This document shows, in pieces, positions 11,240 to 42,847 of a stretch of 49,879 nucleotides of DNA. Source of the DNA: Lysobacter sp. Root690 (lineage in GTDB: Bacteria; Pseudomonadota; Gammaproteobacteria; Xanthomonadales; Xanthomonadaceae). The notes beneath the pieces are model-generated. The model saw only the letters and a list, made by a program, of their open reading frames with translations, searched no databases and was not told the DNA's origin. Positions within the stretch are counted from its first letter, which is position 1. Every line of letters begins with the position of its first letter. Both the position numbers and the translations under genes were made by a program. The stretch is taken from positions 659,157 through 709,035 of the forward strand of contig NZ_LMHM01000012.1 in NCBI RefSeq assembly GCF_001427785.1. Direction: 5' to 3'.

Positions 11240-11252
11240 ATTGCTTCAATCC

Positions 11253-15763: not shown

Positions 15764-15767
15764 AAAC

Positions 15768-25575: not shown

Positions 25576-25584
25576 GGATCTACC

Positions 25585-25953
25585 ATGTCCGCTATTCGTG
25601 AGCCGCTCCGAGTCGCTGTCTACTGCCATACGTTCTCGGAAGATCGGGACGAAGTTGGGTTCCAACGCAAGGTCATCATGCGAACGCTTGAACGTTGCAC
25701 CGATCCGTTCCCAATAATCACCCTGTACACGGACGACGGCTTCTGCCCCGACACGCAGGTACGGCCCGACTTCCAACGAATGCTGCTCGATGCGGCTAAT
25801 GGATATCTGGACTGCATTGCATTCTGCGGTTGGGACCATCTATCCGGTGTCGAGAAGTCCCGGCAGATGCTCAGCCGGTTCCTCAAGAAGCATGAAGTCC
25901 TTCCGCTGGAGTGTCGGGTGTTAGAGGCCGTACTGGTCAGGTTGGCCGCATGA
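25585..25953 (+). CDS. Degenerate resolvase-domain protein
   Basis: A 122-residue protein that still follows the resolvase scaffold: VAVYCHTFSED in place of VAIYARVSxED, LYTDDGFCPDTQVRPDFQRM, and WDHLSGVEKS in place of xDRLSRxxxx. The catalytic Arg of Y-x-R-x-S is His and the later Arg pair is lost, so strand exchange chemistry is unlikely. The frame is intact with tight spacing (9 bases after the previous gene, ATGA into the next), so it appears kept as a protein and not as a decaying pseudogene. Confidence 0.7.
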   Translation: MSAIREPLRVAVYCHTFSEDRDEVGFQRKVIMRTLERCTDPFPIITLYTDDGFCPDTQVRPDFQRMLLDAANGYLDCIAFCGWDHLSGVEKSRQMLSRFLKKHEVLPLECRVLEAVLVRLAA

Positions 25954-27287
25954 ACGCCGCCAGCCCAAGCCGGCTGCGCTGCGCTGTCTATACGCGCAAG
26001 TCCAACGAGGAGGGGCTAGAACGCGAATACAACTCCATCGAAGCGCAGCGAGACGGCGGCGCGAATTACATCGCGAGCCGGCGCAGCGAGGGCTGGGCGC
26101 AGGTCGCCGACGATTACGACGAGCTGGCGGTCTCGGCCCGTGATATGAATCGCCCGGTGTTGCAGCGCTTGATGGAGGACATCCGACAGGGCCGGATCGA
26201 TGTGGTGGTGGTCTACAAACTGGATCGGTTGACACGCTCAATGCGCGACTTCCCGGTGCTGATCGACTTTCTGGACCAGCACAAGGTCACGCTGGTATCT
26301 ATCACGGAAAACTTCAGCACCAAGGATGCGGTCGGTCGGATGACCCTGAACATGATGATGACGTTCGCCCAGTTTGAGCGGGAGCTGGCCGTCGATCGTG
26401 TGCGGGACAAGATGCTGGCCAGCAAGAAGAAGGGGCTGTGGATGCACGGCATCCCACCGTTGGGCTACAACGTCAAGGACCGGCGATTGGTGATCAATCA
26501 TTACGAGGCGGCGCAGGTCCGAATGATCTTTCGGCGGCTGATCGAAACGGAATCAATCTTGACGGTCGTCAACGATATGCGGGGCATGGGTTACCAGAGC
26601 AAGGCGTGGACGACACGCGACGGCCGGGTTCGAGCGCCCCAGCCGCACGATAGGAGCACGATCCAGAAGATTCTGCACAATCGCACCTACCTGGGCGAGT
26701 TGAAGCATCTAGATCAGTATTTCAAGGAATGTCACCCGCCCATCATCGAGGTGGCCTTGTGGGAACAGGTGCATGCCGTGCTGGCAAAGAACTCGCATGC
26801 ACGCGGCAACGCCAGCCGCGCGCGGGTGCATTTTCTTCTCAAAGGTCTTGTCTTCGGCCCCGACCGTCGCGCCCTCACGCCGTGGCATACGACCAAGCGC
26901 AACGGCCGTATGTATCGCTATTACCTCAGTACCGCGCAGATCCACGAGGGTAAGGCGGCCACCACGATGCCGCGCCTTCCGGCGCAGGAGTTTGAATCCC
27001 TTGTCATGTCGTACTTGCGCACGCTGCTGACGTCCGAGGACATGCTTCGGCTCATTACGCAGCAGGCCGCTGCTATCGACCGCGGGCTGGACGAAGCGAA
27101 GGTGACCGTGGCAATGCGGCAATTCGATCAGGTTTGGGATGCCCTATTTCCCGCTGAGCAACAGCGGCTCGTCAAGCTGTTGGTGGAGCAAGTGCTGGTG
27201 CGTCCCGAGGCGATCGAGATTAGGTTTCATCCCAATGGCATCGCCTCGCTTGCGAGCGACTTTGAGCGCAAGGCGGTGGCAGCATGA
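25950..27287 (+). CDS. Large serine recombinase (integrase)
   Basis: A 445-residue recombinase with a full catalytic domain: AVYTRKSNEEG with Ser17 as the nucleophile, YKLDRLTRSMRDF, and FSTKDAVGRMTLNMMMTFAQ then ERE. The recombinase domain follows (GIPPLGYNVKDRRLVINHYE to ILHNRTYLGELKH). The usual zinc-ribbon cysteines are replaced (LKGLVFGPDRRALTPWHTTK), as in the subgroup linked to DUF2924. The coiled-coil-like C-terminus runs from about residue 340. It is the only plausible integrase in the window. The start overlaps the previous stop (ATGA). Confidence 0.93.
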   Translation: MNAASPSRLRCAVYTRKSNEEGLEREYNSIEAQRDGGANYIASRRSEGWAQVADDYDELAVSARDMNRPVLQRLMEDIRQGRIDVVVVYKLDRLTRSMRDFPVLIDFLDQHKVTLVSITENFSTKDAVGRMTLNMMMTFAQFERELAVDRVRDKMLASKKKGLWMHGIPPLGYNVKDRRLVINHYEAAQVRMIFRRLIETESILTVVNDMRGMGYQSKAWTTRDGRVRAPQPHDRSTIQKILHNRTYLGELKHLDQYFKECHPPIIEVALWEQVHAVLAKNSHARGNASRARVHFLLKGLVFGPDRRALTPWHTTKRNGRMYRYYLSTAQIHEGKAATTMPRLPAQEFESLVMSYLRTLLTSEDMLRLITQQAAAIDRGLDEAKVTVAMRQFDQVWDALFPAEQQRLVKLLVEQVLVRPEAIEIRFHPNGIASLASDFERKAVAA

Positions 27288-27730
27288 AGCCGATGCTGAA
27301 GATTGCCGGGTCGCCGAACATCATCGTCACCAGCGACGGAGCGCTTACGGTCATCCTGCCGGTGAGCATTACCCGGCGAGCTGGGCGAAAGCGGATCGGG
27401 CTTCCGAAAGACATCTCAATAGCAGCGTCGGCGTCTGATCTGACTTCGCTACAGCGCGCGCTGGCCCGTGGCTTTCGATGGCGAGGCATGTTGGAAAACG
27501 GCGAAGTTGCCTCCGCGAAAGAGATCGCCGAACGCGAATCGACCGACAACAGCTATGTAGGTCGGATGATCAACCTGACTTTGCTCGCCCCTGAGATCAT
27601 CGCGGGGATTTTGGATGACACCGTTCCTGATGTGCAAATTGACCGGCTCGGCATGAGCCCGCCCATCCTGTGGGAAGAACAGCTGGATCGCCTTGGCCTG
27701 GAACGAGGGGCTACGATTAGGCGCCAATGA
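27284..27730 (+). CDS. HTH-like partner protein of the serine recombinase
   Basis: A 148-residue protein whose start overlaps the recombinase stop (ATGA). LQRALARGFRWRGMLENGEV, then AKEIAERESTDNSYVGRMIN and LTLLAPEIIAGILDD form a ParB/KorB-like HTH that regularly follows this recombinase subgroup. The N-terminal 35 residues are strand-like and basic (ITRRAGRKRIGLPKD). It probably binds DNA to help or regulate recombination. Confidence 0.75.
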   Translation: MKPMLKIAGSPNIIVTSDGALTVILPVSITRRAGRKRIGLPKDISIAASASDLTSLQRALARGFRWRGMLENGEVASAKEIAERESTDNSYVGRMINLTLLAPEIIAGILDDTVPDVQIDRLGMSPPILWEEQLDRLGLERGATIRRQ

Positions 27731-28345: not shown

Positions 28346-28981
28346 ATGATCGAACACGAAGTATTCCGCCGCTCTGATCTTCTCGTTCAGAACATCGTGG
28401 AGATAATCGACCGTCCAATGTGTGACGGTTCCGCGCGTATTGCGGTCTCGGCCAATCTTTGCCAGATGTCGATCGAGCATTGTTGCGCTCTGAGAGCTTT
28501 GTCAGAGAGCAGAATGTTCGCAAGTGGCTTTGTCATTCTGCGCTCTCAATTCGAAGCCGTCGTCCGCGCAATCTGGGTGCTGTACTGCGCTACCGACGAG
28601 CAGGTACAACGGCTGGCCTCTCCGCTGAATGACGCGAGCGAGCAGTCCGCGAAGAACCTGCCTTCAGTCCACGACATGCTAGAGGCATTAGGAAAAGTGC
28701 CTGCAGCGAAGGTCCCATTCGATGCCTTGAGCGAGTTCAAGAGCTACTCATGGAAGGCGCTGAACTCTTTTACGCACGCCGGTATCCATCCACTTCAACG
28801 CATGATTGATGGCTACCCTCTGGTGCTGATTGTGCAGAACGTCAGAGTGAGTAATGGCTTGGCTATGATCGCCGCAATGCAGGTATGCGTACTAACTGGA
28901 ATTCCAAACCTTCAGCGAGAACTACTGCCATTGAATGGGCGATTTCATGATTGCCTGCCGGACCATCGGTCTAGCCCTTGA
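28346..28981 (+). CDS. DUF5677/DUF6988-like helical protein
   Basis: A 211-residue, largely helical protein. SGFVILRSQFEAVVRAIWVL (residues 60-79) and YSWKALNSFTHAGIHPLQRM (about 134-153) give an RSxxE ... HAGxHP pattern seen in DUF5677/DUF6988-type proteins, whose fold may be HEPN-related. The catalytic state is unclear because the classic HEPN R-x4-6-H is not obvious. Lies at the left edge of the defence island. Function unknown. Confidence 0.55.
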   Translation: MIEHEVFRRSDLLVQNIVEIIDRPMCDGSARIAVSANLCQMSIEHCCALRALSESRMFASGFVILRSQFEAVVRAIWVLYCATDEQVQRLASPLNDASEQSAKNLPSVHDMLEALGKVPAAKVPFDALSEFKSYSWKALNSFTHAGIHPLQRMIDGYPLVLIVQNVRVSNGLAMIAAMQVCVLTGIPNLQRELLPLNGRFHDCLPDHRSSP

Positions 28982-29281: not shown

Positions 29282-32200
29282 TCACTCCCGCAGACTGACC
29301 TGGGCAATCTCCGTCCACCCCCTGTCGAAGGTAAACGACTTGGCATTGCCTGCCGGATTCTGGATACGCAAGATTCGGCGATTTTCGGGATCCGTGGCGA
29401 ACTCCACCACGTAGAGCCAGTATGCCTCCCGCTTCTGGATCGCATGATCGAATTGCGTGTGGGACAAGGTGACGGGGCGGTGCTCCAGGGAGCCGGTCAT
29501 CGCCTTCACTTCGATCCAGCGTACAGGCTGGTTGTGGTCATCCTTGGCCAATAGATCGAAGCCAGCGTTGCCCGATTCGGTCGTATGGAGCTGTGGCTCA
29601 GCGTGAAGGATGTGCTTGATAGCCTCCGCTTCGATGCCCATGCGCTGAGACTGGCTGAGACCATCGGGGTCTTCCTCTTCCACGTCCGGATGAGTGCCGA
29701 TATACGAGATGAAAGGACGCCCACCCAAGCTACCGGGAGTGCGCTTGCCATGTTCTCTTGTACCGGACTGGGAACTGCCGTTGGTAGATGGGCCAGAATG
29801 ATTGCCGCCTGCGGAGCGGGAGCCGTCGCCACCGGTCACCGACGTCCTTAAGCTCCTGTGCTCATTGGTGGTACGGCCAGCATAGCCAGATTCAACATCG
29901 CCGCCGTCAGGGTCATGCGAACCTTCGGCGCTGTCTGGCATGTCATCGCCGTACAGATCCTTGTTTTCGTCATAGACGGAACCTTCTGGCGCGGGACTGG
30001 TTTCATCAGTATCGACAGGAATCATCGGTTCGTTAACCTCGGGCGATGTGCTGTCCACCCCGGAAGGTTGCGCAACGCCGAACTTTTCGGCCACCAATGC
30101 CGCCAGATCTGCTTCAGTCAGCTTGAATTTTCGCAGCAAGTCGAGTGCAGCGGGGTCAATATCGGCCTCTCTCGCCAACTGATCGATAACATTGGGCTTG
30201 AAGATAATCTTGGTTTGTAGGAATGGGTTTGCCTTCCAATCCAAGGACTCGAAGCTAATCAAATTGGGTTGGTGCAGCTCACCTTTTGCGTCTGGAACCC
30301 ATTTCCCCTCAATAAGTCGCCGAATGAAATGGGCGTGGAAGTCCGTGTTGTAATTTCCGCGGTTCGTCCAGGTGTAGGCACCATCGAACTGCGACCTTCC
30401 TCCACGCGACTCCAACTCATCCAATGCTTCCCATAAGAGCCTCGCTCTTTCTCTGCGGAAATCATGAGGCAGCGTAGGCAATAGCGACAGCAAATCACCC
30501 AGCCCTTCTATATCCCAATCGATGCACCTGTCGCTTCGATACGAAGTGCCTGGCAGTCCCCTGGCTTCACGCAGCTGACGCAACTCGGCATGGCTAAGCG
30601 CGTTCACTTCTTGCTTTGTTCGCAAATGCCTGGCCGCCCCGCATGAATCCAAAAGCGTCCGTATACTCTCGCCGCGAAGCGCCGGGTAAGACGTATCTAC
30701 GATAGAAATGTTGTCCACGCCAGCGAATAACTTAGACATACGATCCGAAGCGATGTATACCTCGCTTGGCATTGCCAAGTAGCTGCGCCCATCGCCAGTA
30801 TCGACAGCCATTACAAAGCTCGCTGATTGCAACTCTTTGATCAGCTCGATGCGCTTTGCATTTGAGTCAGTCTTGAAGGCCGTCAATATACGCGCGATGT
30901 CATCATCGTAATTTTCGGTATCGATGGCCCCGCCTGCGGCTACCTTATATTTCGGCAAGACTTTCCGAATTACAGCATCCACCGGGTCTGGATGTTGGAT
31001 GCCAATAGACTGAAGAAAATTCTGTGATTCTTCAGTATCACACACGCTGCGTCTAACTGTTAGAAACTCTGTTTCGTCATCCGTCGGCAGAAAAGCATTA
31101 GGCTGTCCATCCGTCTTCGCAATAACGTGCGTTCCATCGCTCAAACGAACAATGGGTGTATTCGCCATCAATGCCCGAACGTGGATCTGATCTTTCAGGT
31201 ACTCGTAAGCGCCCTTGATCCACTCGTCGGACTGTGCCTCGAGGAACAGCTTCGGAAGCTTCGGGAAAATGTCGCGGGGAACGATTTCCTGCACCTTCAG
31301 CTCGTTCGTCGCATAGGTACGCAGGTCGTTTGCCTTGTCCTGAGTGATTTCACCGGTCAGCCATTCCGTGTCTGGCTCGCCGTAGAGAACCGAAAGTTGT
31401 TTGCTGTCGAACAAATCGCGCAAGTCGCTGGTGCGTCCCAACTTGACTTGGCTGGCCTTGGAGTAGCCGCCACTGTCGTTTGGTAAGAACGCCTCATTCT
31501 GAAAGGCTTGCAACACCGCATCGAACATCGGCGTAAACATGCCGCCTTCGGGGAACTTGGCCCTGTCCAGAGGCAGGCAACGCAAGGCATTGATGTCCAG
31601 CCGATTGTTATCACGCAGCCAGATCATGGCCTCGACCAGTAACGAGGCGGCTTCGGCAACCAAGTGATGGTTCCAAAGCTCGTCGCTCCTGATGTTGTCG
31701 CGGCTTGGCGTACTCTGAAACGGACCTTGTAGGTAGAAGCCGAGATTGGTCGCGTGGGCAGTGGGGAAGAACACGACGAGGGGCGACGATGGCAATGGCT
31801 GCATCGTCCATTTGTTCTTGTCGCCTTTTTCGGTGCTGGCAGAGAAGGCCAGCTCGATGCGACCCTTACCCACGTCCCGGTGGAACACCAGCCAATCCTG
31901 GTCTACATCTGCCGCGCCGGAGGCTTGGCCGATGACTTTGATCCGGCTGATGTTGGGACCCAGTGCTTCCGGCTCATCTCGCAAATACAAGCCGGAAGCG
32001 CCACCGTCGGTGCTCCAGGAAACCTCTCGGATGTGCCGCAGGAACAATAGGGAAGTCGCCCCCAGGGCCTTAAGGCCTGCGGTAATGCGGGCCTTGATTG
32101 CGGCCCTATCCGCCTTCAGCGGTAGGAAAATCTGGGTTTCATCTGCATCACGCTGCGTTCTGTCGACCCTGCTTGGGAAAACATAGGCGTCGATGACGAA

Positions 32201-32581
32201 ATCTTCGTCACCGGAATGGATCTCCGGCAAATCCGAAACCTTGTACACCGACTTGAAGCCAAGCCCGAAGCGGCCAATCGAGTTCTCGTCCTTGGTGCTC
32301 TCGGAAATGTCACAGACGCTCCGAACATCGATCTCAGTGAAGGGGTGACCATAGTGGGACACCTCCAGCCGAGCATCGCTCAGGGCGAAACTGACCTGCC
32401 GGCAGCCTTTCCACCCCTCGCCACGGCGCTTAAGAGCATCCTCGGCGTTCTGGAGCAACTCATAGATGAAGTGGGTTTCGTCGTCATAGAGACTGGCAGC
32501 AAGGTCGCCTGACTTCTTCGCGCCTTTTTTGCCATAGTCCTCTCGATTCTGCCGGCAAATATCCTCGTAGTTCGATGCCAC
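29282..32581 (-). CDS. Sacsin-like GHKL ATPase with C-terminal DUF3883 (defence)
   Basis: A 1099-residue protein. The N-terminal domain is a GHKL/HSP90-type ATPase of the sacsin group: N-box FIYELLQNAEDAL (38-50) and glycine box IGRFGLGFKSVYKV (102-115). The long middle region is helical. From about 860 to 980 comes a Gly/Ser/Asp-rich linker. The C-terminal 110 residues are DUF3883: GNAGFDLLAK and RWIEVKAMTG (about 1023-1027), a D...E-x-K pattern of the PD-(D/E)XK fold. The start is GTG with AGGGGAG. It is divergent from the helicase-methyltransferase-Res operon across 176 bases. Such proteins are frequent in defence islands; here probably a sensor or scaffold. Confidence 0.85.
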   Translation of the reverse strand: MASNYEDICRQNREDYGKKGAKKSGDLAASLYDDETHFIYELLQNAEDALKRRGEGWKGCRQVSFALSDARLEVSHYGHPFTEIDVRSVCDISESTKDENSIGRFGLGFKSVYKVSDLPEIHSGDEDFVIDAYVFPSRVDRTQRDADETQIFLPLKADRAAIKARITAGLKALGATSLLFLRHIREVSWSTDGGASGLYLRDEPEALGPNISRIKVIGQASGAADVDQDWLVFHRDVGKGRIELAFSASTEKGDKNKWTMQPLPSSPLVVFFPTAHATNLGFYLQGPFQSTPSRDNIRSDELWNHHLVAEAASLLVEAMIWLRDNNRLDINALRCLPLDRAKFPEGGMFTPMFDAVLQAFQNEAFLPNDSGGYSKASQVKLGRTSDLRDLFDSKQLSVLYGEPDTEWLTGEITQDKANDLRTYATNELKVQEIVPRDIFPKLPKLFLEAQSDEWIKGAYEYLKDQIHVRALMANTPIVRLSDGTHVIAKTDGQPNAFLPTDDETEFLTVRRSVCDTEESQNFLQSIGIQHPDPVDAVIRKVLPKYKVAAGGAIDTENYDDDIARILTAFKTDSNAKRIELIKELQSASFVMAVDTGDGRSYLAMPSEVYIASDRMSKLFAGVDNISIVDTSYPALRGESIRTLLDSCGAARHLRTKQEVNALSHAELRQLREARGLPGTSYRSDRCIDWDIEGLGDLLSLLPTLPHDFRRERARLLWEALDELESRGGRSQFDGAYTWTNRGNYNTDFHAHFIRRLIEGKWVPDAKGELHQPNLISFESLDWKANPFLQTKIIFKPNVIDQLAREADIDPAALDLLRKFKLTEADLAALVAEKFGVAQPSGVDSTSPEVNEPMIPVDTDETSPAPEGSVYDENKDLYGDDMPDSAEGSHDPDGGDVESGYAGRTTNEHRSLRTSVTGGDGSRSAGGNHSGPSTNGSSQSGTREHGKRTPGSLGGRPFISYIGTHPDVEEEDPDGLSQSQRMGIEAEAIKHILHAEPQLHTTESGNAGFDLLAKDDHNQPVRWIEVKAMTGSLEHRPVTLSHTQFDHAIQKREAYWLYVVEFATDPENRRILRIQNPAGNAKSFTFDRGWTEIAQVSLRE

Positions 32582-32757
32582 AGCGCTCCCCTTAACGTCC
32601 TACCCCCGTCTGGTGTCCGCAAATGTAGCTGAACGGTGCAAACTCTCGCCACTTCATGCGAGCATTGGGGCTTGGTTGCCCACCAGGGCGACGCCCCTGC
32701 TGGAAGGAGGGCGCCACCCTACAGGGCTTGATTCCGGAGGCCTGACAGGGGGCTTTG
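32582..32757. promoter_or_regulatory. Divergent promoter region of the four-gene defence locus
   Basis: 176 bases between the GHKL-DUF3883 gene (minus) and the helicase operon (plus). It should hold both promoters, so the two transcription units can be co-regulated. It contains the small palindrome GGGCGACGCCC near 32686. No clear sigma-70 boxes were identified by eye. Confidence 0.45.
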
Positions 32758-35682
32758 ATGTCGGGGGACAAAGAGACGCTTCTTAGCGCGGCCAATCCAC
32801 AACAGCGCGAGGCCATTCTCACTACGGAAGGCCCGGTGCTCATCATTGCGGGCCCAGGGTCGGGCAAGTCCTACACCCTGGTCGAGCGCATCGTCTACCT
32901 CATCACCCGCAAGGGCGTTGCTCCAGAATCGCTGCTGGTTGTCACCTTCACTGACAAGGCGGCGCGGGAGCTGACTACTCGCATCTCTAATCGGCTGGCC
33001 GAACTGGACATCAAGTTCAACCTGAACGAGATGTACCTCGGGACATTCCATTCCATCTGCCTGCGCCTGTTAGAAGACCATCAGGAATACACCCGCCTAA
33101 AGCGCAGCTTCACCCTTTTCGACCAGTTCGACCAGCAGTACTTCCTGTACCAGCGCATCAAAGAGTTCCGCGCCATTGCGGACGGCACCATGGTTATGGG
33201 CGATGACGGCATCGGTCGCTGGAACCAGTCCGAGAACCTGCTGCATTGGCTCAACAAGGTCGGCGAGGAGGCCTTGGACGCGGAGGCGCTCGCACAAGCG
33301 CCGGAGGTCGAAGTAAAGGCGTTGGGGCTGCTGTTCCGCCGCTATCAGGAGCTTCTGGCCGAGCACAACGCGCTGGACTTCTCCGGCATCCAGTTCGAGG
33401 CGCTGCAACTGCTGGAAAAGCACCCCCAGGTGCTGGAGGCCGTGCGAGCCAAGCTGTCCTACCTAATGGTGGACGAATACCAAGACACCAACACTATCCA
33501 GGAGCGGCTGTTGCTGCTGTTGGCCGGAGAAAAGAAGAACCTATGTGTGGTGGGTGACGACGACCAGGGTCTATACCGTTTTCGCGGCGCCACCATCCGC
33601 AACATTCTGGAGTTCCCTAAGCTCTTCGCCGAGGGCCAGTGCAAGCAGGTCCAGTTGACCGTCAACTATCGCTCGCACCCGGACATAATCCGCTTTTACA
33701 ACGAATGGATGCTGGACCAGAAGTGGGACGACGGTGAGCGAAAGTATCGCTACGACAAGCAAATCCTGCCGCGCGAGGCTCGGTTTCCTGAGGTGCCTGC
33801 TGTACTGAAGCTCAGGGCCACGGATCCCGCCGGAGACAGCGCCCAGTGGCACGCTGAGGTACTGGCATTCCTAAATGCGCTGAAGGACTCGGGCAAGCTT
33901 ACCGACTGGAACCAAGTCGCCTTCCTGTACCAGTCGGTGAAGAGTGACCGTGCCCAGGACCTGGCCCGCTTCCTCGAAGGGGCCGGCGTGCCGGTCTATT
34001 CGCCGCGCTCCAACCTGTTTTTCGAGCGCGAAGAAGTGCGGATGATGATCGGGGCGCTGATCTTCCTGTTCCCGCAGTTCGCGAAGGTGCGGGTATGGTC
34101 GGATGGCGCGACCTTGCCCATCTGGAACTACTACGACCAGCAGTGCTTCAAGCCGTTCGCCGACGAGCTGCGTAAGCCTGAGAACAGGGCGCTGCTGGAG
34201 TGGGCGCGGCCCCTGGCCAAGCGCCACGTCGTGCTGGCCCAAACCACTGACTATGCCTTCTCTAGCCTCTTCTACCAGCTGTTGCAGTTCCCGCTATTCT
34301 CGCGCTACCTGGGCGAGGAAGCGACCCACGGCGTGGACAAAGGGCGTGCGGCCCGCAACCTGGCGACCTTTTCCAGCCTGCTGACCAAGTTCGAGCACCT
34401 GCACTACGTCAGCGTATTGAACCCGGAGTGGCTGGAACGCAACTTACGCGATCTGTTCAACCACTACCTCCGCTTCCTGAAGGACGGCGGCCTCGGCGAG
34501 TACGAGGACACGGCTGACTACGCGCCCAAGGGCTGCGTCTCGTTCCTGACCATCCATCAGTCCAAGGGGCTGGAGTTCCCTGTGGTGGTGTGCGGCTCGA
34601 TGGAGGCTGGCCCGCGCAAGCAGCACCGCGACATGGACGTGCTGCTGGAGGAAGGCGGCTATTTGTCCAAGGCCACGTTCGAGCCGTTGGAGCACATCAA
34701 GACCTTCGACTTCTCGCGACTGTTTTACACCGCCTTCTCGCGGGCGCAAAACCTGCTAGTGCTGGCAGCGCAGCAGCGCGGGGGAAAGGGCCAGCGCCGA
34801 GCGCCGTCGAAGTACTTCGAGCGCATGTTCGAAGAGCTTCCCAAGTGGCGTGACGTGGACCTGGGTGTACTGGACTACGAGCCGGTGAAGGAGATCAACC
34901 TCAAGCGCGAGTATTCGTTTACCTCACACATCACCGTGTTCGAGAACTGCGCGGAGCAATATCGCTTCTTTAAGGAGCTGGACTTTGCACCCATCCGCGA
35001 GAGCCAGATCCTGTTCGGTACGTTGGTGCACCAGACCATCGAGGACATCCACAAGACGGTGTTGCGGGGCGAGGAAGGCACGCTGGACGGTGACAGTATT
35101 GCCGGGTGGTTCTCGGCCAACTACGCCACGCTGTCCAAGAAGGAGCGTGTGTACCTGGCTGCCAGCTCCCAGCGGGCGGCACTGAACCACGTTTTGCGCT
35201 ACTACGAGCGCGAGAAGGGCCACTGGGACAGGATCAAGGAAGCCGAAGTCGAGATTTCACTGGTCAAGGATAGCTATATCCTCAAGGGCAGCGTGGACTT
35301 GATTCGGGGCGAGAACGACACGGTCGAGATCATCGACTTCAAGTCGGAAAAAAAGCCGGACATGGAGAAGGACAAGGAACGGCTCAAGCAGTACCAAAGC
35401 CAGTTGCAGGTGTACGCCCATCTGGTCGAGGAACGCACCGGGCAGAAAGTCAGCCGGATGCACCTGTATTACACCGGCGAGGAAGGCGGCAACCCCTACG
35501 TCTCCTTTCCGAAGGATGATCGTGCCATCGGCAAGACCATTGGCCGGTTTGATGACATCGTGGCCCGCATAGAACGGCGGGACTACCAGATGGCGGCCCG
35601 ACCGGCCAAGCTGTGCGTCGAATGCGACATGCGTGCCTACTGCGACAACAAGAATTGGAAATTCAGGAAGACAGGATCATGA
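32758..35682 (+). CDS. UvrD/PcrA-type helicase fused to Fe-S PD-(D/E)XK nuclease (defence)
   Basis: A 974-residue superfamily 1A helicase-nuclease. Helicase motifs: NPQQREAI (13-20), Walker A GPGSGKS (32-38), TFTDKAARE, Walker B LMVDEYQDTN (about 237-246), GDDDQGLYRFRGA, VNYRSHPDI, TIHQSKGLEFPVVV (about 597-610) and FYTAFSRAQN (about 655-664). The C-terminal nuclease has a leading Cys in ENCAEQYRFF (about 730), GTLVHQTIEDIH, GSVDLIR and IIDFKSEKK (D and E/D-x-K, about 846-866), and CVECDMRAYC (954-963), which is the four-Cys Fe-S pattern of AddB and Cas4. AGGGGG precedes ATG 32758. Overlaps the methyltransferase start (ATGA). Confidence 0.93.
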   Translation: MSGDKETLLSAANPQQREAILTTEGPVLIIAGPGSGKSYTLVERIVYLITRKGVAPESLLVVTFTDKAARELTTRISNRLAELDIKFNLNEMYLGTFHSICLRLLEDHQEYTRLKRSFTLFDQFDQQYFLYQRIKEFRAIADGTMVMGDDGIGRWNQSENLLHWLNKVGEEALDAEALAQAPEVEVKALGLLFRRYQELLAEHNALDFSGIQFEALQLLEKHPQVLEAVRAKLSYLMVDEYQDTNTIQERLLLLLAGEKKNLCVVGDDDQGLYRFRGATIRNILEFPKLFAEGQCKQVQLTVNYRSHPDIIRFYNEWMLDQKWDDGERKYRYDKQILPREARFPEVPAVLKLRATDPAGDSAQWHAEVLAFLNALKDSGKLTDWNQVAFLYQSVKSDRAQDLARFLEGAGVPVYSPRSNLFFEREEVRMMIGALIFLFPQFAKVRVWSDGATLPIWNYYDQQCFKPFADELRKPENRALLEWARPLAKRHVVLAQTTDYAFSSLFYQLLQFPLFSRYLGEEATHGVDKGRAARNLATFSSLLTKFEHLHYVSVLNPEWLERNLRDLFNHYLRFLKDGGLGEYEDTADYAPKGCVSFLTIHQSKGLEFPVVVCGSMEAGPRKQHRDMDVLLEEGGYLSKATFEPLEHIKTFDFSRLFYTAFSRAQNLLVLAAQQRGGKGQRRAPSKYFERMFEELPKWRDVDLGVLDYEPVKEINLKREYSFTSHITVFENCAEQYRFFKELDFAPIRESQILFGTLVHQTIEDIHKTVLRGEEGTLDGDSIAGWFSANYATLSKKERVYLAASSQRAALNHVLRYYEREKGHWDRIKEAEVEISLVKDSYILKGSVDLIRGENDTVEIIDFKSEKKPDMEKDKERLKQYQSQLQVYAHLVEERTGQKVSRMHLYYTGEEGGNPYVSFPKDDRAIGKTIGRFDDIVARIERRDYQMAARPAKLCVECDMRAYCDNKNWKFRKTGS

Positions 35683-37667
35683 GCAAGACCACCACCATCG
35701 CGCAGGGCGACCTGTCACTGAGTAAGCCCGACGGCAGCACCACCAACGTCGAGAAGTACGAATTCGAGCCGATCAAGGGCTATCCGATGTTGAACTGGCG
35801 CGGCAAGCGTCCGTTCACGGCGACTCAGTTCTATCCGGCGCAGCTGAAGGAAGTACATGGCGAAGAGGTGGACGGCTGGCGTAACAAGATTTTCTGGGGC
35901 GACAATCTTCAGGTGATGAGTCACCTGTTAAAGCAGTTCAGGGGTAAGGTCAATATGGTTTATATCGATCCGCCATTTGACTCAAAAGCAGACTATCGAA
36001 AAAAGATTCATCTAAAAGGCAAGACGGTCACGGGTGACGTCGCGGCCTTTGAAGAGAAGCAGTATGGTGACCTTTGGTCTAACGATGAATACCTCCAGTT
36101 CATGTATGAAAGGCTGGTTCTTCTTCGTGAGTTGCTTACAGAAGAAGGCAGCATTTGGGTTCAATGCGACTGGCATCGCAGTCATCACATACGTTGCTTG
36201 CTTGAGGAAGTATTTGGTCCGGAAAATTTCTTAAACGAGGTCGTCTGGCAGCGGACTGACCCGCATAACGATGCCAAGAGTCGACTTGGAATAATTCACG
36301 ACACCATATTCTGGGTCGCCAAGAAGAAGGAGAAAGCGTTCTACGACTGGCAGGCTGCTGCCGGTAATCTTTCTGCTTCAGCGCTCAGCGAATATAGCTT
36401 AGTTCGCTTGGATGATGGCTCGGTGGTCACCTATTCGGAAGAAACGAAAGAGCTTGGCAAGCGATTTAAGGTAGAAAATACAACCTACAAAGGGAAGGAC
36501 TCTAAGCGGCAATTCGAGTGGCGTGGGGTCCGGCCGTCGCCTAATCGTGTTTGGGCGTATGCCTCTCCCGAGGAAATGGATCAAGCCCTGGAGCGTGGGG
36601 ATCTTTATCTTCGCGATCTGAATAAGGGTTCTACTCGCTGCAAGGTCTTCTTTCTAGAGGAAAGTAACGGCCGTCTATTGCAATCGATCTGGACTGACTG
36701 TGGCCGGATGAAGGGTGGATCTGACTACCCCACCCGCAAGCCCGAGCAATTGCTGGAAAGAATTGTTACCGCTGGCTGCCCAGTTGGAGGGATTGTTCTA
36801 GACACATTTGTCGGATCAGGAACTGCCGCTGTGGTAGCTCAGAAACTTGGCCGTAAGTTTATTGCAGCCGACATCAACCTTGGCGCAGTTCAGTCGTCAA
36901 CTAAGCGATTGAATGGTTCTGCAGAGGACCTTCGCCAGCAGTCTCTTCTGGATGGAGAGAAGCGGTTTTCCGGATTCGAGGTTTACAACGTCAACAACTA
37001 CGATATTTTCCGGAACCCGACCCAAGCAAAAGAACTGCTGCTTGAAGCACTGGAAATCCAGAAGCTGGAGTTCAGTGCTGTGTTCGATGGCGAGAAGGAT
37101 GGACGCATGGTGAAGATCATGCCCGTCAACCGAATCTCCACCAGCGCCGACCTCAATGAGCTGATCGCTGGCTTCGACTACAAGGCTTGGGAACGCCGCA
37201 AGGCTGAAGCGCCCACGCGCCCGGTCGAAAAGGTCACGCTCGTCTGCATGGGCCACGAGCCCGACCTGGCAGCCCAGTTGGTGCTAGCTGCCAAGCCATA
37301 CCTGATCAACGTGGAAGTGGTGGACATTCTGCGCGACAAGTCCAACCTGGAGTTCAAACGGGATTCCGAAGCCAAGGTCGTCGTCAAGAACGGCGAGCTG
37401 GCCATCGAGCGCTTCTACCCGATGAGCCTGCTGCAAAAGTTGTCCTTGCAGAAGGAGTCGGCCGGCGAATGGCGTGAGTTGGTCGAATCCGTGCTGATTG
37501 ACTGGAACTATGACGGCGCGGTACTGCAACCGGCCGAGGTTGACATCCCGGACAAGAATGAGCTCGTCTCCGGCAAGTACAAGGTGCCGGCCGACGCGGG
37601 TACCATCCGCGTCAAGATCACCGACCTGCTTTCTGAATCGTGGGAAGGAAACATCGGAAATGGCTAA
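35679..37667 (+). CDS. Beta-class DNA methyltransferase, type III Mod-like (defence)
   Basis: A 662-residue amino-methyltransferase (N6-adenine or N4-cytosine). WRNKIFWGDNLQVMSHLLKQ precedes the catalytic VYIDPPFDSKADY (about 95-107). The AdoMet site DTFVGSGTAAVVAQKLG is at about 374-390, the beta-class order. Residues 110-370 hold the target-recognition region, and the last 180 residues look like an interaction domain. The start overlaps the helicase stop and the end overlaps the Res start, so all three are one transcript. Bases 35935-37010 are clearly more AT-rich than both flanks, suggesting replacement of the catalytic and recognition segment. Confidence 0.93.
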   Translation: MSKTTTIAQGDLSLSKPDGSTTNVEKYEFEPIKGYPMLNWRGKRPFTATQFYPAQLKEVHGEEVDGWRNKIFWGDNLQVMSHLLKQFRGKVNMVYIDPPFDSKADYRKKIHLKGKTVTGDVAAFEEKQYGDLWSNDEYLQFMYERLVLLRELLTEEGSIWVQCDWHRSHHIRCLLEEVFGPENFLNEVVWQRTDPHNDAKSRLGIIHDTIFWVAKKKEKAFYDWQAAAGNLSASALSEYSLVRLDDGSVVTYSEETKELGKRFKVENTTYKGKDSKRQFEWRGVRPSPNRVWAYASPEEMDQALERGDLYLRDLNKGSTRCKVFFLEESNGRLLQSIWTDCGRMKGGSDYPTRKPEQLLERIVTAGCPVGGIVLDTFVGSGTAAVVAQKLGRKFIAADINLGAVQSSTKRLNGSAEDLRQQSLLDGEKRFSGFEVYNVNNYDIFRNPTQAKELLLEALEIQKLEFSAVFDGEKDGRMVKIMPVNRISTSADLNELIAGFDYKAWERRKAEAPTRPVEKVTLVCMGHEPDLAAQLVLAAKPYLINVEVVDILRDKSNLEFKRDSEAKVVVKNGELAIERFYPMSLLQKLSLQKESAGEWRELVESVLIDWNYDGAVLQPAEVDIPDKNELVSGKYKVPADAGTIRVKITDLLSESWEGNIGNG

Positions 37668-40377
37668 GGGCACGCGCAAGGCCGCCAAGGAAAGCCCGTC
37701 GAGCGTGGCCGCCTCGCTCGACTTCGCTTTCTTCCGCTTCCTGTGGCAGTTCCATCAGGCCAACAAAGGCAACATCCGTAAGAGCTATCGCGAGCTGACC
37801 CGCAAGTTCCTCGACTTCAATGACCCCGAGAAGAACCCCAAGGCCTTCCTGCGCCAGCCGCAGTTCGAGGCGCTGGAAACCTACGTTTTCCTGAAGGAAT
37901 TCCTAGGCAACGCAAAGGTCGAAGAAATCTTCAAAGCATGGTACGAGCGCAGCGGCAAGTTCGAGGGTCGCCAGTTTGGTTCGTTTCGCGGGACCGCTGG
38001 GCAGGAGATGTTCCAGTTCGGTGACTCCGATGAGCTTGAGCTGAGCTCATACAAGACGCTGTTCGACCGCATGCGCAAGAACAGCCGGATGTACTCCAAC
38101 TACATCTTTGCACTGACCATGGGTACAGGTAAGACCATCTTGATGGCGACGTGCATCTTTTACGAGTTTCTGCTTGCCAACAAGTTCCCGAAGGATCCCC
38201 ACTTCTGCCACAACGCGCTGGTGTTCGCCCCGGACAAGACGGTGCTGCAATCGCTGAAGGAAATCGAAGGCTTTGACCTGTCCGGCGTCGTGCCATCGGA
38301 GTACGTCTCATGGATGACCGCGAACCTGAATTTCCATTATCTGGAAGAAGCCGGCACTTCACTGGACACGATGGACAGGTCAAAGTTCAATATTATCGTC
38401 TCTAATACCCAGAAGATCATTCTCAAACGCCAGCACAAGAACAGGAACGCTACCGACAAGCTGTTCGGAGCCACGGCAGAAATCCTCACTCCGTCCAGCG
38501 TGTACGACGAAAACGCCGACCTGTATGGCTTCGACCAGCCGGAGGATGAGGCCGATCTGACCACCAACCAGCGTTTCGAAAAGCTGCGCCGGCTGGAACA
38601 ACTAGGTATCTATGTAGACGAGGCCCACCACGCCTTCGGCAAAAGCTTGGCCAAGGACATGGGCGTCGGCCAAAAAGAAGCAGACACCAGCCTGCGTACG
38701 ACGATCGACCAACTGGCCAAGAGCTTGAAGAACACCGGCACGCATGTCGTGGCTTGTTTCAATTACACCGGCACTCCCTACGTCGGCCGCGAAGTTCTTC
38801 CAGAAGTGGTGTACGCATACGGACTAAAGGAGGCCATCGACAAAGGTTTCTTAAAGAATGTCGAGCTGCACGGTTACACCAATACCCGGACCGACGAGTT
38901 CGTGGGCATTGCTATCGAGGAGTTCCTGAAGCAAACAGCCGACCTAGAACCGGAAGGCTTGCGGCCGAAGATCGCATTTTTCGCAGGCACAGTGGAAGAA
39001 CTGACCGGCGAATTGAAGCCCGCCGTCGAAGCTGCTCTCGTCAAACACGGCATTCCCACCTCACGCATTCTCGTGAATGTGGGTGACGAGAAAATCACTT
39101 CCAACGACGATATCCGCGAGTTCAATCGGTTGGATACCGAAGGATCGGAAAAGCAATTCATCCTCCTGGTCAACAAGGGTCGCGAGGGTTGGAACTGCCG
39201 CTCCCTGTTCGGCGTCGGCTTATTTCGCCAGCCGAAGTCTAAGATATTCGTCCTGCAAGCCACTATGCGCTGCCTACGTTCCATCGGCCAAACCCAATAC
39301 ACGGGTCACGTTTTCCTCTCCAACGATAACCTGAAAATTCTTAATGACGAGTTGCAGCAAAACTTCCGCATCAGCACCGACGAGTTGCAGAAGAAGGACA
39401 ACAACAAAGAGCGTGTTCAAATCAAGGTGGTTCTTCCGTCCGTGAAGATCAAGCTGGTTCGCGTGCGCAAGCAGTTTGAAATGAAGGAGAAAGCGTTCAA
39501 GCCCGGCGTCGCGCTGGGGGTAGACAGGACAGATACTGATGCCTGGAAAGAGTTGACGGAAAAGTACCGCCTGCTGGAAACGCGACAGGGAGGACTGAGC
39601 TTGGAAGATGCCGCACAGTCCGGGAAGGTGGACATCCGCGACTTGACCGACCGCCGCCATAAGCGCGAATTCTCGCGCCTGACCTTGGTAGCAGAAGTGG
39701 CTCGCTATCTCAATCGCAACCCACTGGTAGTGGAAGACCTGCTGGATTCCACCAAGGAAGGCACGGACGAGTTGGTGGTCATCACCAACGAGTTCAACGA
39801 ACTTCTGTACGACGAGATCATCCCACGGTTGTTCAAGCTGTTGTATGACCTGGACGAAACCAAGCAAACCGAGGAGCACGAGGTCGAACTGATCAAACTC
39901 CCGCCGCAAGGTTATTACGAGGTCAATGCCGCCAAGGACAAAATAGTCCGCCTGACAGACAGCAGCATTACGAACGACTTCAAGGAAAAGAGCTTCCACC
40001 TGGACGCCTACTGCTTCGACTCCGGCTCCGAGCGGCAGTTGTTCTGGGACTTACTCCAGCACAGTAAGGTCAAGAAGATCTACTTCACGGGCATGTTGAC
40101 CCACGGCCAATCCGATTTCTTCATCCAGTACATCGACCCGGAAAGCCACACCGTTCGTAGCTACTATCCCGACTTCCTATTCGAACGTATCGAGGAGGAC
40201 GGCACGACCACGTACGTCATCGTTGAGGTGAAAGCCGATAACCAGATCGACGACGCGGTAGTGCGGGCTAAGAAGGACTTCGCCAGCCAAACCGCTGTCG
40301 CCAGCGGCATGGAATACATGCTGATGAAGTCTACAGATGCCGATACTAGCAACGTCGCTTCACTCCTAAACGCTTGA
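37660..40377 (+). CDS. Type III restriction-like Res: SF2 helicase with PD-(D/E)XK nuclease (defence)
   Basis: A 905-residue protein starting at ATG 37660, 8 bases inside the methyltransferase end. Superfamily 2 motifs: Walker A TMGTGKTIL (about 153-161), VDEAHHAFG (about 318-326), FNYTGTPY (about 365-372) and ATMRCLRSIGQTQYTGH (near 533-549). The C-terminal nuclease has YPDFLFERI ... YVIVEVKAD, the PD...E-x-K pattern (about 835-858). It should translocate on DNA and cut unmodified targets with the upstream methyltransferase. The extra helicase-nuclease and GHKL partner set it apart from a plain type III system. Confidence 0.93.
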   Translation: MAKGTRKAAKESPSSVAASLDFAFFRFLWQFHQANKGNIRKSYRELTRKFLDFNDPEKNPKAFLRQPQFEALETYVFLKEFLGNAKVEEIFKAWYERSGKFEGRQFGSFRGTAGQEMFQFGDSDELELSSYKTLFDRMRKNSRMYSNYIFALTMGTGKTILMATCIFYEFLLANKFPKDPHFCHNALVFAPDKTVLQSLKEIEGFDLSGVVPSEYVSWMTANLNFHYLEEAGTSLDTMDRSKFNIIVSNTQKIILKRQHKNRNATDKLFGATAEILTPSSVYDENADLYGFDQPEDEADLTTNQRFEKLRRLEQLGIYVDEAHHAFGKSLAKDMGVGQKEADTSLRTTIDQLAKSLKNTGTHVVACFNYTGTPYVGREVLPEVVYAYGLKEAIDKGFLKNVELHGYTNTRTDEFVGIAIEEFLKQTADLEPEGLRPKIAFFAGTVEELTGELKPAVEAALVKHGIPTSRILVNVGDEKITSNDDIREFNRLDTEGSEKQFILLVNKGREGWNCRSLFGVGLFRQPKSKIFVLQATMRCLRSIGQTQYTGHVFLSNDNLKILNDELQQNFRISTDELQKKDNNKERVQIKVVLPSVKIKLVRVRKQFEMKEKAFKPGVALGVDRTDTDAWKELTEKYRLLETRQGGLSLEDAAQSGKVDIRDLTDRRHKREFSRLTLVAEVARYLNRNPLVVEDLLDSTKEGTDELVVITNEFNELLYDEIIPRLFKLLYDLDETKQTEEHEVELIKLPPQGYYEVNAAKDKIVRLTDSSITNDFKEKSFHLDAYCFDSGSERQLFWDLLQHSKVKKIYFTGMLTHGQSDFFIQYIDPESHTVRSYYPDFLFERIEEDGTTTYVIVEVKADNQIDDAVVRAKKDFASQTAVASGMEYMLMKSTDADTSNVASLLNA

Positions 40378-40476: not shown

Positions 40477-40580
40477 CCCTGCCATGGAGAGAGTGGTTTA
40501 AACTTGGAAGCCATGGGCGCGTCAAATTCCGCGGTCAACCACAGCGCTCACGTCGAGCCGCGAAGCGGCTTCGATTAAAG
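40477..40580. repeat. Flanking direct repeat, copy A (with hairpin)
   Basis: Starts CCCTGCCATGGAGAGAGTGG, includes an exact 13-base TGGGCGCGTCAAA shared with copy B, and ends with the hairpin AGCCGC-GAA-GCGGCT (40556-40570). It lies in the 222-base gap after the Res stop, where the facing ABC-3C ATPase gene also ends. See copy B at 44388-44529. Could be a terminator, a recombination boundary or part of a structured RNA. Confidence 0.65.
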
Positions 40581-40598: not shown

Positions 40599-42371
40599 CT
40601 ACAACCTGGGCGATTCAATCCCTAAGAACATCGGGTGATCAAGCCCGACAAAGTCTGGCGTCCACTCTGTGTCGTCTTGCCCTTGGTCATAGCGATGGTT
40701 CGTAGTGGAATAGATCACCTGCGCGGACCGCTCAGATGCTAGCAATTTGATTTGCTTTATGTACTCCGCTAGATCATCACGAGATATATCCTGTTGCCTG
40801 GGTGTATCTAAGATGAAAAATCGAGGACCCGGGTTCTCAGGTTGCGTTACTACATCAAACGCAGCAGTGCGGATCGCAAGAATTATTCTTGTGAGCGTGC
40901 TTCCCTTGAACTTCGTGACTTTTTGGCCGCCGAATACCACATTGAAATCACGATCCACTTGAACGTCCAAGCTGACGTTTGGCGTACGAAGGACGCCCAG
41001 CCAGAATTTGATCCTCTCGGCGATGGCCGTTCGAATTCTCAGGAGGTCGAGATCGGCCGCGCTTGAGTGCGCGTCCAGATTTGACAAGCGCGAATGCACT
41101 TTTTCGCGTTCATCAAGTTTCGCTACATAGTCAGACTCTATTCGGATCAGCTCCTCTTCCAGTTGGCTGGCTCGCCGTAGTTGTATTACTTGCTCCGTCA
41201 ACTGAGAGACCGCCCCTACCAGGGTGGCTACGGACGACTGATTCACCGAATCAAGACGCTCCTGTCTCGCCGTAGAAATTTCAAGGTCCAATCGTGATAG
41301 CTCACGCACGATCTCATTGGTTCTTCGCTGATGAATTAAATTGCTTCGCTCAAGATCTTTAATCTGATCCTTCAGATAGAGCAAGCTCTTGCCGTACGTG
41401 GCCGAGCTCCGCACAAAAAGGCCGCAGTTTTCGCTGGCACAAATAGCGTCGAACGATGCGAAGACACGCCGCGCCTCCTCGTTCAATGAAAGAGTGTCGG
41501 CCTCTACCTCGATTTCGTGCTTGATCTGTTCAAAGCCACGCACGCGCGCCTCCAGCTCTAATCGCTCTTGCGCTAATTCACGCCCCTGCTTCTGCAGCCT
41601 GGCGATGCGAATATCGAGTTCAACATCAACCTGCTCAGATAGATCGCCACCTCCGCGCAATGCCTCAAGACCATCGATAGCAACCTTTAGGTCAAGATTA
41701 ATTTCCGGAACTGATCGGCGTGGCCCCCCAAGATCAGACACCAGTTCAGCCATGCTTTTCTCCGATCGAATAATGGCCCGATCGAGATACTCAAGCTGGT
41801 CTTTCAACTCGTTTCTTGCGCGCCTTTTATCGAACGAGTTCCTGGGGCCAAGGCTAAATACCAGGCGCATTGCCTCTGCGTACTGATTCTTGATGAATTT
41901 TTGCGCAGAATAATATTCATCCGAATAGCCGTGATCTTGATCCAAGTAAAATAAAGGCAAGATCTGCGGGCTATAAATGTGAGTTGAGGCGCTTGCAACT
42001 GTTGTCAGAACAGGATCTTCCAAGCGCCATAGAGACAAGAGGAAGCGACTGTACTCGCGCTCGCTTATGAATTCTGCCGTAGCTCCGTCTGGATCCTCGA
42101 CTATTACGTCAAAAGGTCTTTTAACTTTCCGAGTAATGATGAATTTTCGGTCGCTGACCATGACCTCCAAGATGACGTCATCGCATCGCTCGATGATGTC
42201 ATCGCGGTATTCGACCTTATATCCAAGTGCGAAAACGATCGACTGCACTAGTGGAGTCTTTCCAGAACCATTGGGTCCAAACAATTGAGTCGCTCGCTTG
42301 CCAAAGACAAGCTTTCTCGAGGACCACGCTGTAGTCCCGCGACCGACAATCCGGAGGCTAATAAGTTTCAT
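40599..42371 (-). CDS. ABC-three-component system ATPase (SMC/RecN-like)
   Basis: A 590-residue ABC ATPase with a long coiled coil. Walker A is GPNGSGKT (32-39) after LFGP. The coiled coil spans roughly residues 165-440 with a central turn. The signature-like FKGSTLTRIILAIR is near 495, and Walker B with D-loop reads RFFILDTPRQQDIS (Asp about 522). An H-loop histidine is in STTNHRYD (about 558). DTPRQ in place of the usual DE-P fits the ABC-3C family described by Krishnan and colleagues. It overlaps the middle-component stop by 4 bases. Probably senses DNA structure and triggers the effector. Confidence 0.88.
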   Translation of the reverse strand: MKLISLRIVGRGTTAWSSRKLVFGKRATQLFGPNGSGKTPLVQSIVFALGYKVEYRDDIIERCDDVILEVMVSDRKFIITRKVKRPFDVIVEDPDGATAEFISEREYSRFLLSLWRLEDPVLTTVASASTHIYSPQILPLFYLDQDHGYSDEYYSAQKFIKNQYAEAMRLVFSLGPRNSFDKRRARNELKDQLEYLDRAIIRSEKSMAELVSDLGGPRRSVPEINLDLKVAIDGLEALRGGGDLSEQVDVELDIRIARLQKQGRELAQERLELEARVRGFEQIKHEIEVEADTLSLNEEARRVFASFDAICASENCGLFVRSSATYGKSLLYLKDQIKDLERSNLIHQRRTNEIVRELSRLDLEISTARQERLDSVNQSSVATLVGAVSQLTEQVIQLRRASQLEEELIRIESDYVAKLDEREKVHSRLSNLDAHSSAADLDLLRIRTAIAERIKFWLGVLRTPNVSLDVQVDRDFNVVFGGQKVTKFKGSTLTRIILAIRTAAFDVVTQPENPGPRFFILDTPRQQDISRDDLAEYIKQIKLLASERSAQVIYSTTNHRYDQGQDDTEWTPDFVGLDHPMFLGIESPRL

Positions 42372-42847
42372 GCGGGGCTCAGCCTCAGCTGCCTCTCGGT
42401 GCGGATGTTGCGATAGCTTCTTTCTACGGAAATCAAATTGGAAGCCAGATCTCCGCTCGCTGAAATAGCTCGGTCAATGACACTCCGACCGGCTGCCGTC
42501 GCAGATATTTTTTTACTTGTCGAGTCTACTTCTACCAGTTCGGCCTGTTCTAAGAACGCCAGCGCCTGGACGGTCCTTACCCGAAGAGATGCAGACCAGC
42601 CCAGATGCTGGGCCGAGCCGCGAAATCCCGGAAATGTTCGCTCATAGCAATCGCCGATGAGCTGGCCGATCTCTTCAGAGGCCGGCTTTACGTGGCCCTT
42701 TGAAATCATCAGTATGGTGATGGCGATAAGTGGAAGATGAAACATTGCTTCATTATTGAGTCTCGGCGGCGGCGACCCATGCGTATAGTCGAACTCGATT
42801 TCAATTCCATCGGCTCTGATCTGGCTAAAGAACTCCGCGAACTTCAT
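42368..42847 (-). CDS. ABC-3C middle component
   Basis: A 159-residue protein with a helix-rich, winged-helix-like layout: FHLPLIAITILMISKGHVKP, then SLRVRTVQALAFLEQAELVE and VDSTSKKISATAAGRSVIDR. It is coupled by ATGA overlaps to both the effector gene upstream and the ATPase gene downstream. Size, position and fold pattern match the small middle component of ABC-three-component systems, thought to link ATPase and effector. I assign it mainly by context. Confidence 0.75.
   Translation of the reverse strand: MKFAEFFSQIRADGIEIEFDYTHGSPPPRLNNEAMFHLPLIAITILMISKGHVKPASEEIGQLIGDCYERTFPGFRGSAQHLGWSASLRVRTVQALAFLEQAELVEVDSTSKKISATAAGRSVIDRAISASGDLASNLISVERSYRNIRTERQLRLSPA

Follow-up and report, generated by a model that had tools for sequence, protein, structure and literature searches.

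Type III restriction-modification (R-M) systems, of which EcoP15I is an example, combine a beta-class methyltransferase (Mod), with its target recognition domain (TRD) lying between the motifs, and an SF2 subunit (Res) with a C-terminal nuclease, the two being encoded by adjacent genes. They act on two head-to-head sites through ATP-dependent sliding and methylate one strand. Tiamat (TmtA in PADLOC-DB), a sacsin-type GHKL protein, acts as a single stand-alone gene. We have analysed a 49,879-nucleotide stretch of DNA from Lysobacter sp. Root690 (the window), in which four intact open reading frames (ORFs) at 29282–40377 encode a GHKL ATPase with a NOV_C (DUF3883) tail, a UvrD-Cas4-like helicase-nuclease, a Mod and a Res. 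Comparison of related loci indicates that the GHKL gene is an inherited, linked but optional partner of a UvrD-Mod-Res core.

The core is already known in silico. In a genome-based prediction, UvrD-Cas4 fusions most commonly adjoin type III Mod and Res genes, some being solitary (Hudaiberdiev et al. 2017, PMC5704561), and the same three parts are found in one neighbourhood here, with the UvrD fused to a pfam12705 nuclease (PF12705, 1.3e-21) and the gene order conserved; the idea of a categorically new core is thereby ruled out. The 2017 loci also contain WYL, HTH and Schlafen-like genes, and a GHKL-NOV_C gene is not mentioned in the passages of that paper used here. Among the literature matches listed, subscription papers being mostly outside the search, no experimental study of the core as a set was found. 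From EcoP15I-like systems, the locus differs in adding the UvrD-Cas4 and GHKL genes and in a Res nuclease that is TnsA-like and hardly matches the REase_III models. Nine TmtA models match the GHKL protein (best 6.6e-74, one spanning the C-terminal part), but, unlike Tiamat, the GHKL of the window's clade is linked to UvrD-Mod-Res in 9/9 loci. The GHKL-Shedu protein VcSduA likewise joins a GHKL ATPase to a C-terminal PD-(D/E)xK nuclease; as far as the consulted parts of its description go, that nuclease is DUF4263 rather than NOV_C, and it forms its own system with no Mod, Res or UvrD described (PMC12137116). No DUF4263 match was found by Pfam in the window's GHKL. The MORC/paraMORC R-M operons resemble the locus in combining GHKL ATPases with SF2 helicases, nucleases and methylases, but use other GHKL families, and the passages of the paper that we drew on contain no UvrD-Cas4 operon gene (Iyer et al. 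2008, PMC2292703). ARMADA type II, which protects against some phages, also has a methyltransferase and several helicases including a UvrD-like one but, in the sections consulted, its helicases include YprA and SNF2 and it carries a PglX-like enzyme (PMC12458937); neither DUF1998 (YprA-type) nor SNF2 gave a Pfam match in the four proteins. The DUF1998 and PLD genes of DISARM had no Pfam match in the four proteins or six scanned neighbours, and PglZ, BrxL and BrxC of BREX were absent for the same proteins from the PADLOC and Pfam matches listed, which bears out the view of an earlier reading made from the sequence alone (the sequence-only reading) that DUF1998, PLD, PglZ and BrxL are lacking.

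Genes and genomes are given below with our own labels (G for genomes, L for loci) where these are needed. In a sample of 297 genomes of the window's family (f1), Res relatives at E ≤ 1e-30 occur in six genomes, four of them close (G000, G009, G083 and G203), and GHKL relatives at the same threshold occur in exactly those four, which represent four genera; the distant Mod-Res pairs of the other two (G123, G211) had neither UvrD nor GHKL relatives within 20 kb. In the family of G512 (f26, 117 genomes), Res at E ≤ 1e-100 is present in three genomes of three genera and GHKL in the same three. In all seven genomes the GHKL gene is divergent from and adjacent to the core. Random placement would produce these overlaps with a chance of ~ 3e-9 (f1) and 4e-6 (f26), values which ignore kinship and common transfer and serve as a guide only. 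Co-occurrence within the same genomes in two family samples counters the idea that GHKL is a random neighbour, and since gene order and orientation are conserved in other genomes, a chance arrangement is excluded. The sequence-only reading had proposed in advance that failure of the set to recur beyond this genome would overturn it; the set does recur, and the two family samples agree.

The class and viral samples show how often the partner is missing. Among 369 genomes of the class, Res was found in three: the genome of the window, and G866 and G756, both of which lack GHKL (for G866, judged on only 2.7 kb upstream of UvrD). Fifteen viral contigs contain Res: two (L039 and L040, whose contigs are also L081 and L080) have all four genes, seven have the core without GHKL and six were not usable. 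Five of these six (L036, L037, L044, L045, L049) begin at or inside the core, L036 having the same identities as G009 and probably being the same locus, and the sixth, L050, has Mod and a Res piece with no UvrD and no GHKL in 8.1 kb upstream and is a broken or partial core. A scan of genome contigs gave a single result (L002, 62%), a fragment that was set aside. A scan of viral contigs with GHKL alone returned nothing although other queries (A1, A4) reached existing members, and so its sensitivity is low. Altogether there are 28 informative core loci, nine with GHKL (seven genomes, two viral contigs) and 19 without (ten plasmids, G756, G866, L038, L041, L042, L043, L046, L047 and L048); the loci are not all independent, L006, L007 and L041 being near-identical and L011 and L012 likewise. 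Within the core tree, from which L043 was omitted because its Res is mis-framed, the seven GHKL-bearing loci placed all fall in one clade (G1061 and G1075 were found later). Three loci without GHKL (L003, L004 and L038) fall in the same clade, as does L049, whose GHKL state is not judgeable. A single gain of GHKL followed by losses is the simplest reading, some nodes being weak. Absent from 19/28 cores, some in the same clade, GHKL must be dispensable or replaceable, and one obligatory four-gene system is rejected. Of the single composite system proposed by the sequence-only reading, a composite R-M-like locus therefore stands and its obligatory character does not.

Where it is present, GHKL has evolved in step with the core. 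Its pairwise distances correlate with those of UvrD (Mantel r = 0.934, 11/5040 permutations) and of Res (r = 0.871, 5/5040), and between the same loci it diverges about 2.5 times as much as UvrD (mean 0.368 vs 0.148).

The core is found widely without it. A Res search of 72,556 plasmids gave 26 records, 14 covering at least 80% of the query, and the ten annotated (two of Nitrosomonas, two of Enterococcus, and one each of Blastomonas, Phaeobacter, Yoonia, Vibrio, Spirosoma and Tunicatimonas) all have the order UvrD-Mod-Res, across three phyla; the same order is seen in chromosomal loci. No GHKL relative was detected by tblastn in these ten plasmid loci. Priestia has a more distant UvrD-methyltransferase-helicase set, and Res relatives are present in three phage records, among them PV036426.1 (Acutalibacteraceae phage; 340–2895, 46% over 97% of the query). 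A UvrD search of plasmids gave 21 records, five of which were annotated; the genes of Geminocystis and Nostoc are broken. The Spirosoma plasmid has two unknown genes between UvrD and Mod (L009, 10400–11981), and further insertions at this point are an OLD-like ATPase-TOPRIM protein in G756 (L052, 12911–14875) and one unknown gene in L042 (7277–8140). The core thus looks like a site where accessory genes settle. Related ORFs of 1415–1457 residues follow Res in L040 (12763–17010), L049 (7431–11678), L044 (7591–11907) and G009, and that of L040 matches SF1-type helicase domains.

Mod matches the Pfam domain N6_N4_Mtase (8e-44) and its top relatives of solved structure are the type III Mods 6k0w and EcoP15I (4zcf). 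The motif D97-P-P is invariant and followed by F (Y in one of 11 aligned), and F377, G379, S380 and G381 in the FxGxG motif region are invariant in the same number. The order of the beta class (DPPY/F motif, TRD, FxGxG motif) is found, with a hypervariable region, residues 181–345, between the two motifs. Across 28 Mods (L050 omitted), the three blocks of this region average 23–32% identity and every other Mod block 54–75%. The TRD of the window is 17–32% identical to its counterparts in 25 of 27 comparisons, against 57–78% for the remaining Mod. It shares, though, 92% identity with the G203 TRD and 89% with that of a Nitrosomonas eutropha plasmid, whose remaining Mod is only 82% identical, and only 19% with that of G083, despite identities of 85% for Res and about 90% for UvrD. 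This pattern indicates that TRDs are exchanged between cores, fitting a specificity domain.

Res matches ResIII (5e-6) and a TnsA-like nuclease (2.1e-6) in Pfam. Its GxGKT and DEAHH motifs are invariant (11 aligned), as are the likely catalytic residues D838, E856 and K858 (11/11), so that both an SF2 motor and a PD-(D/E)xK nuclease, the parts of a type III Res, are present by motif and Pfam match. The NCBIfam model BPTD_3080 gave 51.8 bits against a cut-off of 800. In a fold search the EcoP15I Res (4zcf_C) came third, among many SF2 proteins; as the structure model has only medium confidence (67.5), the fold matches indicate SF2 and not type III specifically.

The UvrD protein combines a UvrD-helicase domain (1.2e-74) with PDDEXK_1, and the cas4 model TIGR00372 matches at 2e-11 with 44 bits, under its cut-off of 65. 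Cysteines 732, 954, 957 and 963 are invariant in 11/11 homologues and the likely catalytic D848, D861 and K863 are kept in all of them. Such a four-cysteine pattern is typical of iron-sulphur (Fe-S) nucleases of the Cas4/AddB type, and the invariance of the cysteines fits an Fe-S reading of this nuclease. A broken cyanobacterial uvrD (L075, 9998–12486) consists of pieces 57–62% identical to residues 1–699, followed by a DUF3883 piece at the Cas4-like position; if this uvrD-DUF3883 is real, it suggests that the Cas4-like and DUF3883 nuclease types may replace each other.

The GHKL protein matches SACS (3.2e-14) and NOV_C (DUF3883, 1.4e-9). Residues E41, N45, D48 and G103–G108 of the ATPase, and the putative catalytic residues E984, D1009, E1024 and K1026 of the tail, are invariant in 10/10 aligned GHKLs. 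The assignments of catalytic residues in the three PD-(D/E)xK sites, and of the active-site motifs, we take from the protein families.

The UvrD and Mod genes overlap by 4 bases and the Mod and Res genes by 8 (Table 1). The likely UvrD start, an ATG directly after the TTG that opens the ORF, agrees with the nearest relatives and makes the gap shared with GHKL 176 bases long; on the other side, the GHKL N-terminus MASNYE is kept in 7/7 aligned. A promoter scan of this gap found no match to the sigma-70 consensus. In G009, L039 and L040 the stretch separating GHKL from UvrD seemed to hold a conserved small gene on the minus strand; this was rejected, since, judged from translations alone, the opposite strand resembles a small excisionase-type HTH gene; no such HTH gene was seen in the gap of the window. 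With ORFs and coordinates in agreement, the layout of the sequence-only reading (four genes, both overlaps and the 176-base gap) holds. Its type III-like Mod is upheld by the solved relatives and the hypervariable TRD, its Fe-S type helicase-nuclease appears right from the domains and the four cysteines, and its count of three PD-(D/E)XK-like domains, in UvrD, NOV_C and Res, agrees with the likely catalytic residues kept in each.

Table 1 Coordinates of the four genes, their domains and the shared control region in the window
Feature	Positions	Strand	Remarks
GHKL-NOV_C protein, 1099 residues; sacsin-type N-terminal ATPase, PADLOC TmtA (Tiamat) similarity	29282..32581	-	GTG start
NOV_C/DUF3883 PD-(D/E)xK-like tail, residues 987-1064	29390..29623	-	Pfam NOV_C PF13020, 1.4e-9
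Sacsin/GHKL ATPase motifs ELLQNAED and IGRFGxGFK, residues 37-131	32189..32473	-	Pfam SACS, NCBIfam P_loop_sacsin
Divergent control region, 176 bases, GHKL start to UvrD start	32582..32757	.	
UvrD-Cas4-like SF1A helicase-nuclease	32758..35682	+	ORF opens TTG 32755, likely start ATG 32758
RecB/Cas4-like nuclease domain with four invariant Cys, residues 724-964 of the ORF	34924..35646	+	PDDEXK_1 1.3e-21
Mod, beta-class N6-adenine/N4-cytosine methyltransferase, 662 residues, type III Mod relative	35679..37667	+	ATG start
TRD of Mod, residues 181-345, hypervariable, exchanged between loci	36219..36713	+	Identity across Mods
Res, SF2 translocase with C-terminal TnsA-like PD-(D/E)xK nuclease, 905 residues	37660..40377	+	ATG start
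TnsA-like endonuclease domain of Res, residues 820-889	40117..40326	+	Pfam 2.1e-6, barely over cut-off

A similar assembly occurs in a more distant genome. Among 398 genomes sampled from the phylum, two (G000, G512) have Res at E ≤ 1e-100 and six (G000, G512, G416, G347, G359, G363) have GHKL at E ≤ 1e-50, the G347 contig being too short for gene context. G416, of another class, has a minus-strand run of Mod (898 residues), Res (1047), UvrD/PDDEXK_1 (923) and GHKL/NOV_C (1077), in which a 1-base overlap joins Mod to Res, and the Res–UvrD and UvrD–GHKL gaps are 124 and 3 bases. Identity to the window is 44% for GHKL, ~ 25% for UvrD, ~ 23% for Res and ~ 28% for Mod; the G416 UvrD aligns over nearly its full length to the core UvrD profile and the G416 Res only in the SF2 motor. 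Relatives of the G416-type Mod-Res in seven viral contigs and five annotated plasmids (of 38) had, in the stretches covered, which are partly short, no GHKL relative, and their sole UvrD match was a weak 73-residue stretch in L091. At the extreme edge of both L089 and L090 an annotated UvrD-type gene is present, outside the UvrD comparison. Because these Mod-Res relatives are without GHKL or UvrD relatives, and given the short stretches and the two uncompared edge genes, UvrD and GHKL look like additions to the Mod-Res of G416. L089 and L090 (1–12147) also place DUF6361, PLD-family and helicase-related genes, as annotated, with the G416-type Mod-Res and UvrD-type gene, a DISARM-flavoured but different combination. 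The GHKL/SNF2 pair of Methanomethylovorans closely follows a UvrD with PDDEXK_1 that has the same orientation.

On balance we favour a mobile, methylation-guided anti-invader system, in which Mod and Res would restrict, UvrD would degrade and GHKL-NOV_C would be an added ATP-gated clamp or nuclease. The sequences lend good support to the restriction part; the role of GHKL is one that we infer by analogy. To judge from their families, Mod would methylate a specific site picked by its swappable TRD and so mark self, and Mod and Res together would form a type III-type restriction enzyme, Res translocating with ATP and its TnsA-like domain cutting unmarked DNA. UvrD-Cas4 may then load on the resulting ends, degrade the DNA and prevent repair, as suggested by the precedent of ZomB, a UvrD with two Cas4-like domains which, in the part of the work consulted, degrades duplex DNA in an ATP-dependent manner (PMC9453066). 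GHKL-NOV_C, an accessory of one clade, could act as an ATP-gated dimeric clamp whose NOV_C tail makes a further cut or nick or keeps the substrate in place for UvrD. This step draws on its partners and on GHKL families: in the portions of these papers available to us, ATPase and nuclease residues of VcSduA are both required for defence (PMC12137116), GHKL ATPases occur in R-M operons and MutL works with UvrD (Iyer et al. 2008, PMC2292703). As the NOV_C tail keeps its nuclease site, a clamp or effector role is as likely as one as sensor or scaffold. No mechanism for sacsin-type GHKL proteins, which are scored as defence proteins, was met among the literature matches listed. A bolder version, speculative and rather unlikely, would be MutL-UvrD logic used as immunity: GHKL closes on DNA that Mod and Res find unmarked, NOV_C nicks it and UvrD-Cas4 is loaded, giving long-range destruction instead of a single cut, with GHKL-NOV_C having joined unrelated Mod-Res-UvrD sets on two or more occasions (in the window clade and in G416).

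In addition to the 19 cores without GHKL, some within its own clade, several observations weigh against this picture. On the restriction side, Res matches the PADLOC REase_III model weakly (E = 0.0049) and has no sequence relative in the PDB at E ≤ 0.01; the UvrD of Annamia (60%) is accompanied by no more than 49 residues of Mod, that of Fusobacterium (31%) by no match to Mod or Res, and L050 lacks UvrD. On the GHKL side, a single G416-type run was found, so that a second recruitment depends on that one genome, and the GHKL structure model is unusable (pLDDT 36.8). PADLOC scores the protein as TmtA, a named defence protein in its own right, and its gene is transcribed in its own orientation, opposite to UvrD-Mod-Res. 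Distant GHKLs have other partners or none of these: those of G359, G363 and plasmids of Rhizobium, Ensifer and Methanomethylovorans are without the NOV_C motif and paired with SNF2-type helicases, and that of a Sulfuricurvum plasmid (25%) keeps the motif and has a NERD gene and a Qat system for neighbours, with UvrD, Mod and Res all unmatched in its 20 kb (a GHKL search of plasmids gave 17 records, of which four were annotated). The TmtA matches, the cores without GHKL, the separate transcription and these other contexts would all suit an independent Tiamat-like gene acting separately from a complete UvrD-Mod-Res system with which it has an island and promoter region in common. We regard this as unlikely because GHKL and Res occur in the same genomes in two family samples, the divergences of GHKL, UvrD and Res are correlated, and in G416 GHKL-NOV_C starts 3 bases past the UvrD of another Mod-Res-UvrD set.

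GHKL proteins work as conformational switches, and GHKL might instead be a gatekeeper, restraining or licensing the UvrD and Res nucleases for self-protection and releasing them on infection, rather than attacking DNA. A divergent promoter would permit separate dosage, and the faster divergence of GHKL relative to UvrD might suit a part that meets phage factors; the invariant NOV_C nuclease site (10/10) is needless for a pure regulator, however, and the persistence of cores without GHKL means that it is not always required against toxicity, making this improbable. More doubtful still is the proposal that the core serves the upkeep of mobile elements (end processing, recombination, plasmid competition) and not phage restriction. 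Many copies are indeed on plasmids and on contigs classed as viral, UvrD of this family is also found without Mod-Res, and the 2017 authors, in the passages used here, propose an ancillary RecB/AddB-like role for UvrD-Cas4 (PMC5704561), but TRD diversity and exchange are typical of restriction and several loci adjoin defence genes (Lamassu, ABC-three component, OLD-like, ShosA-like).

Other defence genes and mobile-element genes surround the four genes. A Lamassu set lies next door on the minus strand at 40599–44136 (in PADLOC, LmuB 8.5e-208, LmuC 2e-64 and an LmuA-type Cap4 nuclease, LmuA model 1.4e-123), flanked by an imperfect 65-base direct repeat (75%) at 40477–40541 and 44388–44452, which looks like a cassette-insertion scar. 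The 12-base core of this repeat had no exact match in the compared loci beyond the window genome's own copies, and within 22000–45600 no direct repeat of at least 16 bases brackets the four genes, the sole long one bracketing Lamassu. On the other side, a DUF6988 protein at 28346–28981 (+) matches the PADLOC candidate PDC-S52 (1.8e-78), and a large serine recombinase of 458 residues with two recombinase-related small genes occupies 25114–27730, its resemblance to CcrB being well under the model cut-off. Genes related to this recombinase are also found close to the core in G009 and L044, and a serine-recombinase cassette may therefore be the system's vehicle. The defence genes are situated between a prophage region at 1123–19314 (portal, terminase large subunit, D5-type primase and two methyltransferase-like ORFs) and a tRNA-Arg gene at 45234–45310.

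Versions of nearly the same core with and without GHKL can be compared, their UvrD being 77–92% and their Res 74–85% identical to those of the window. As GHKL is inherited with a restriction system that has a recognisable specificity subunit and a helicase-nuclease, the role of a poorly understood protein family becomes testable.

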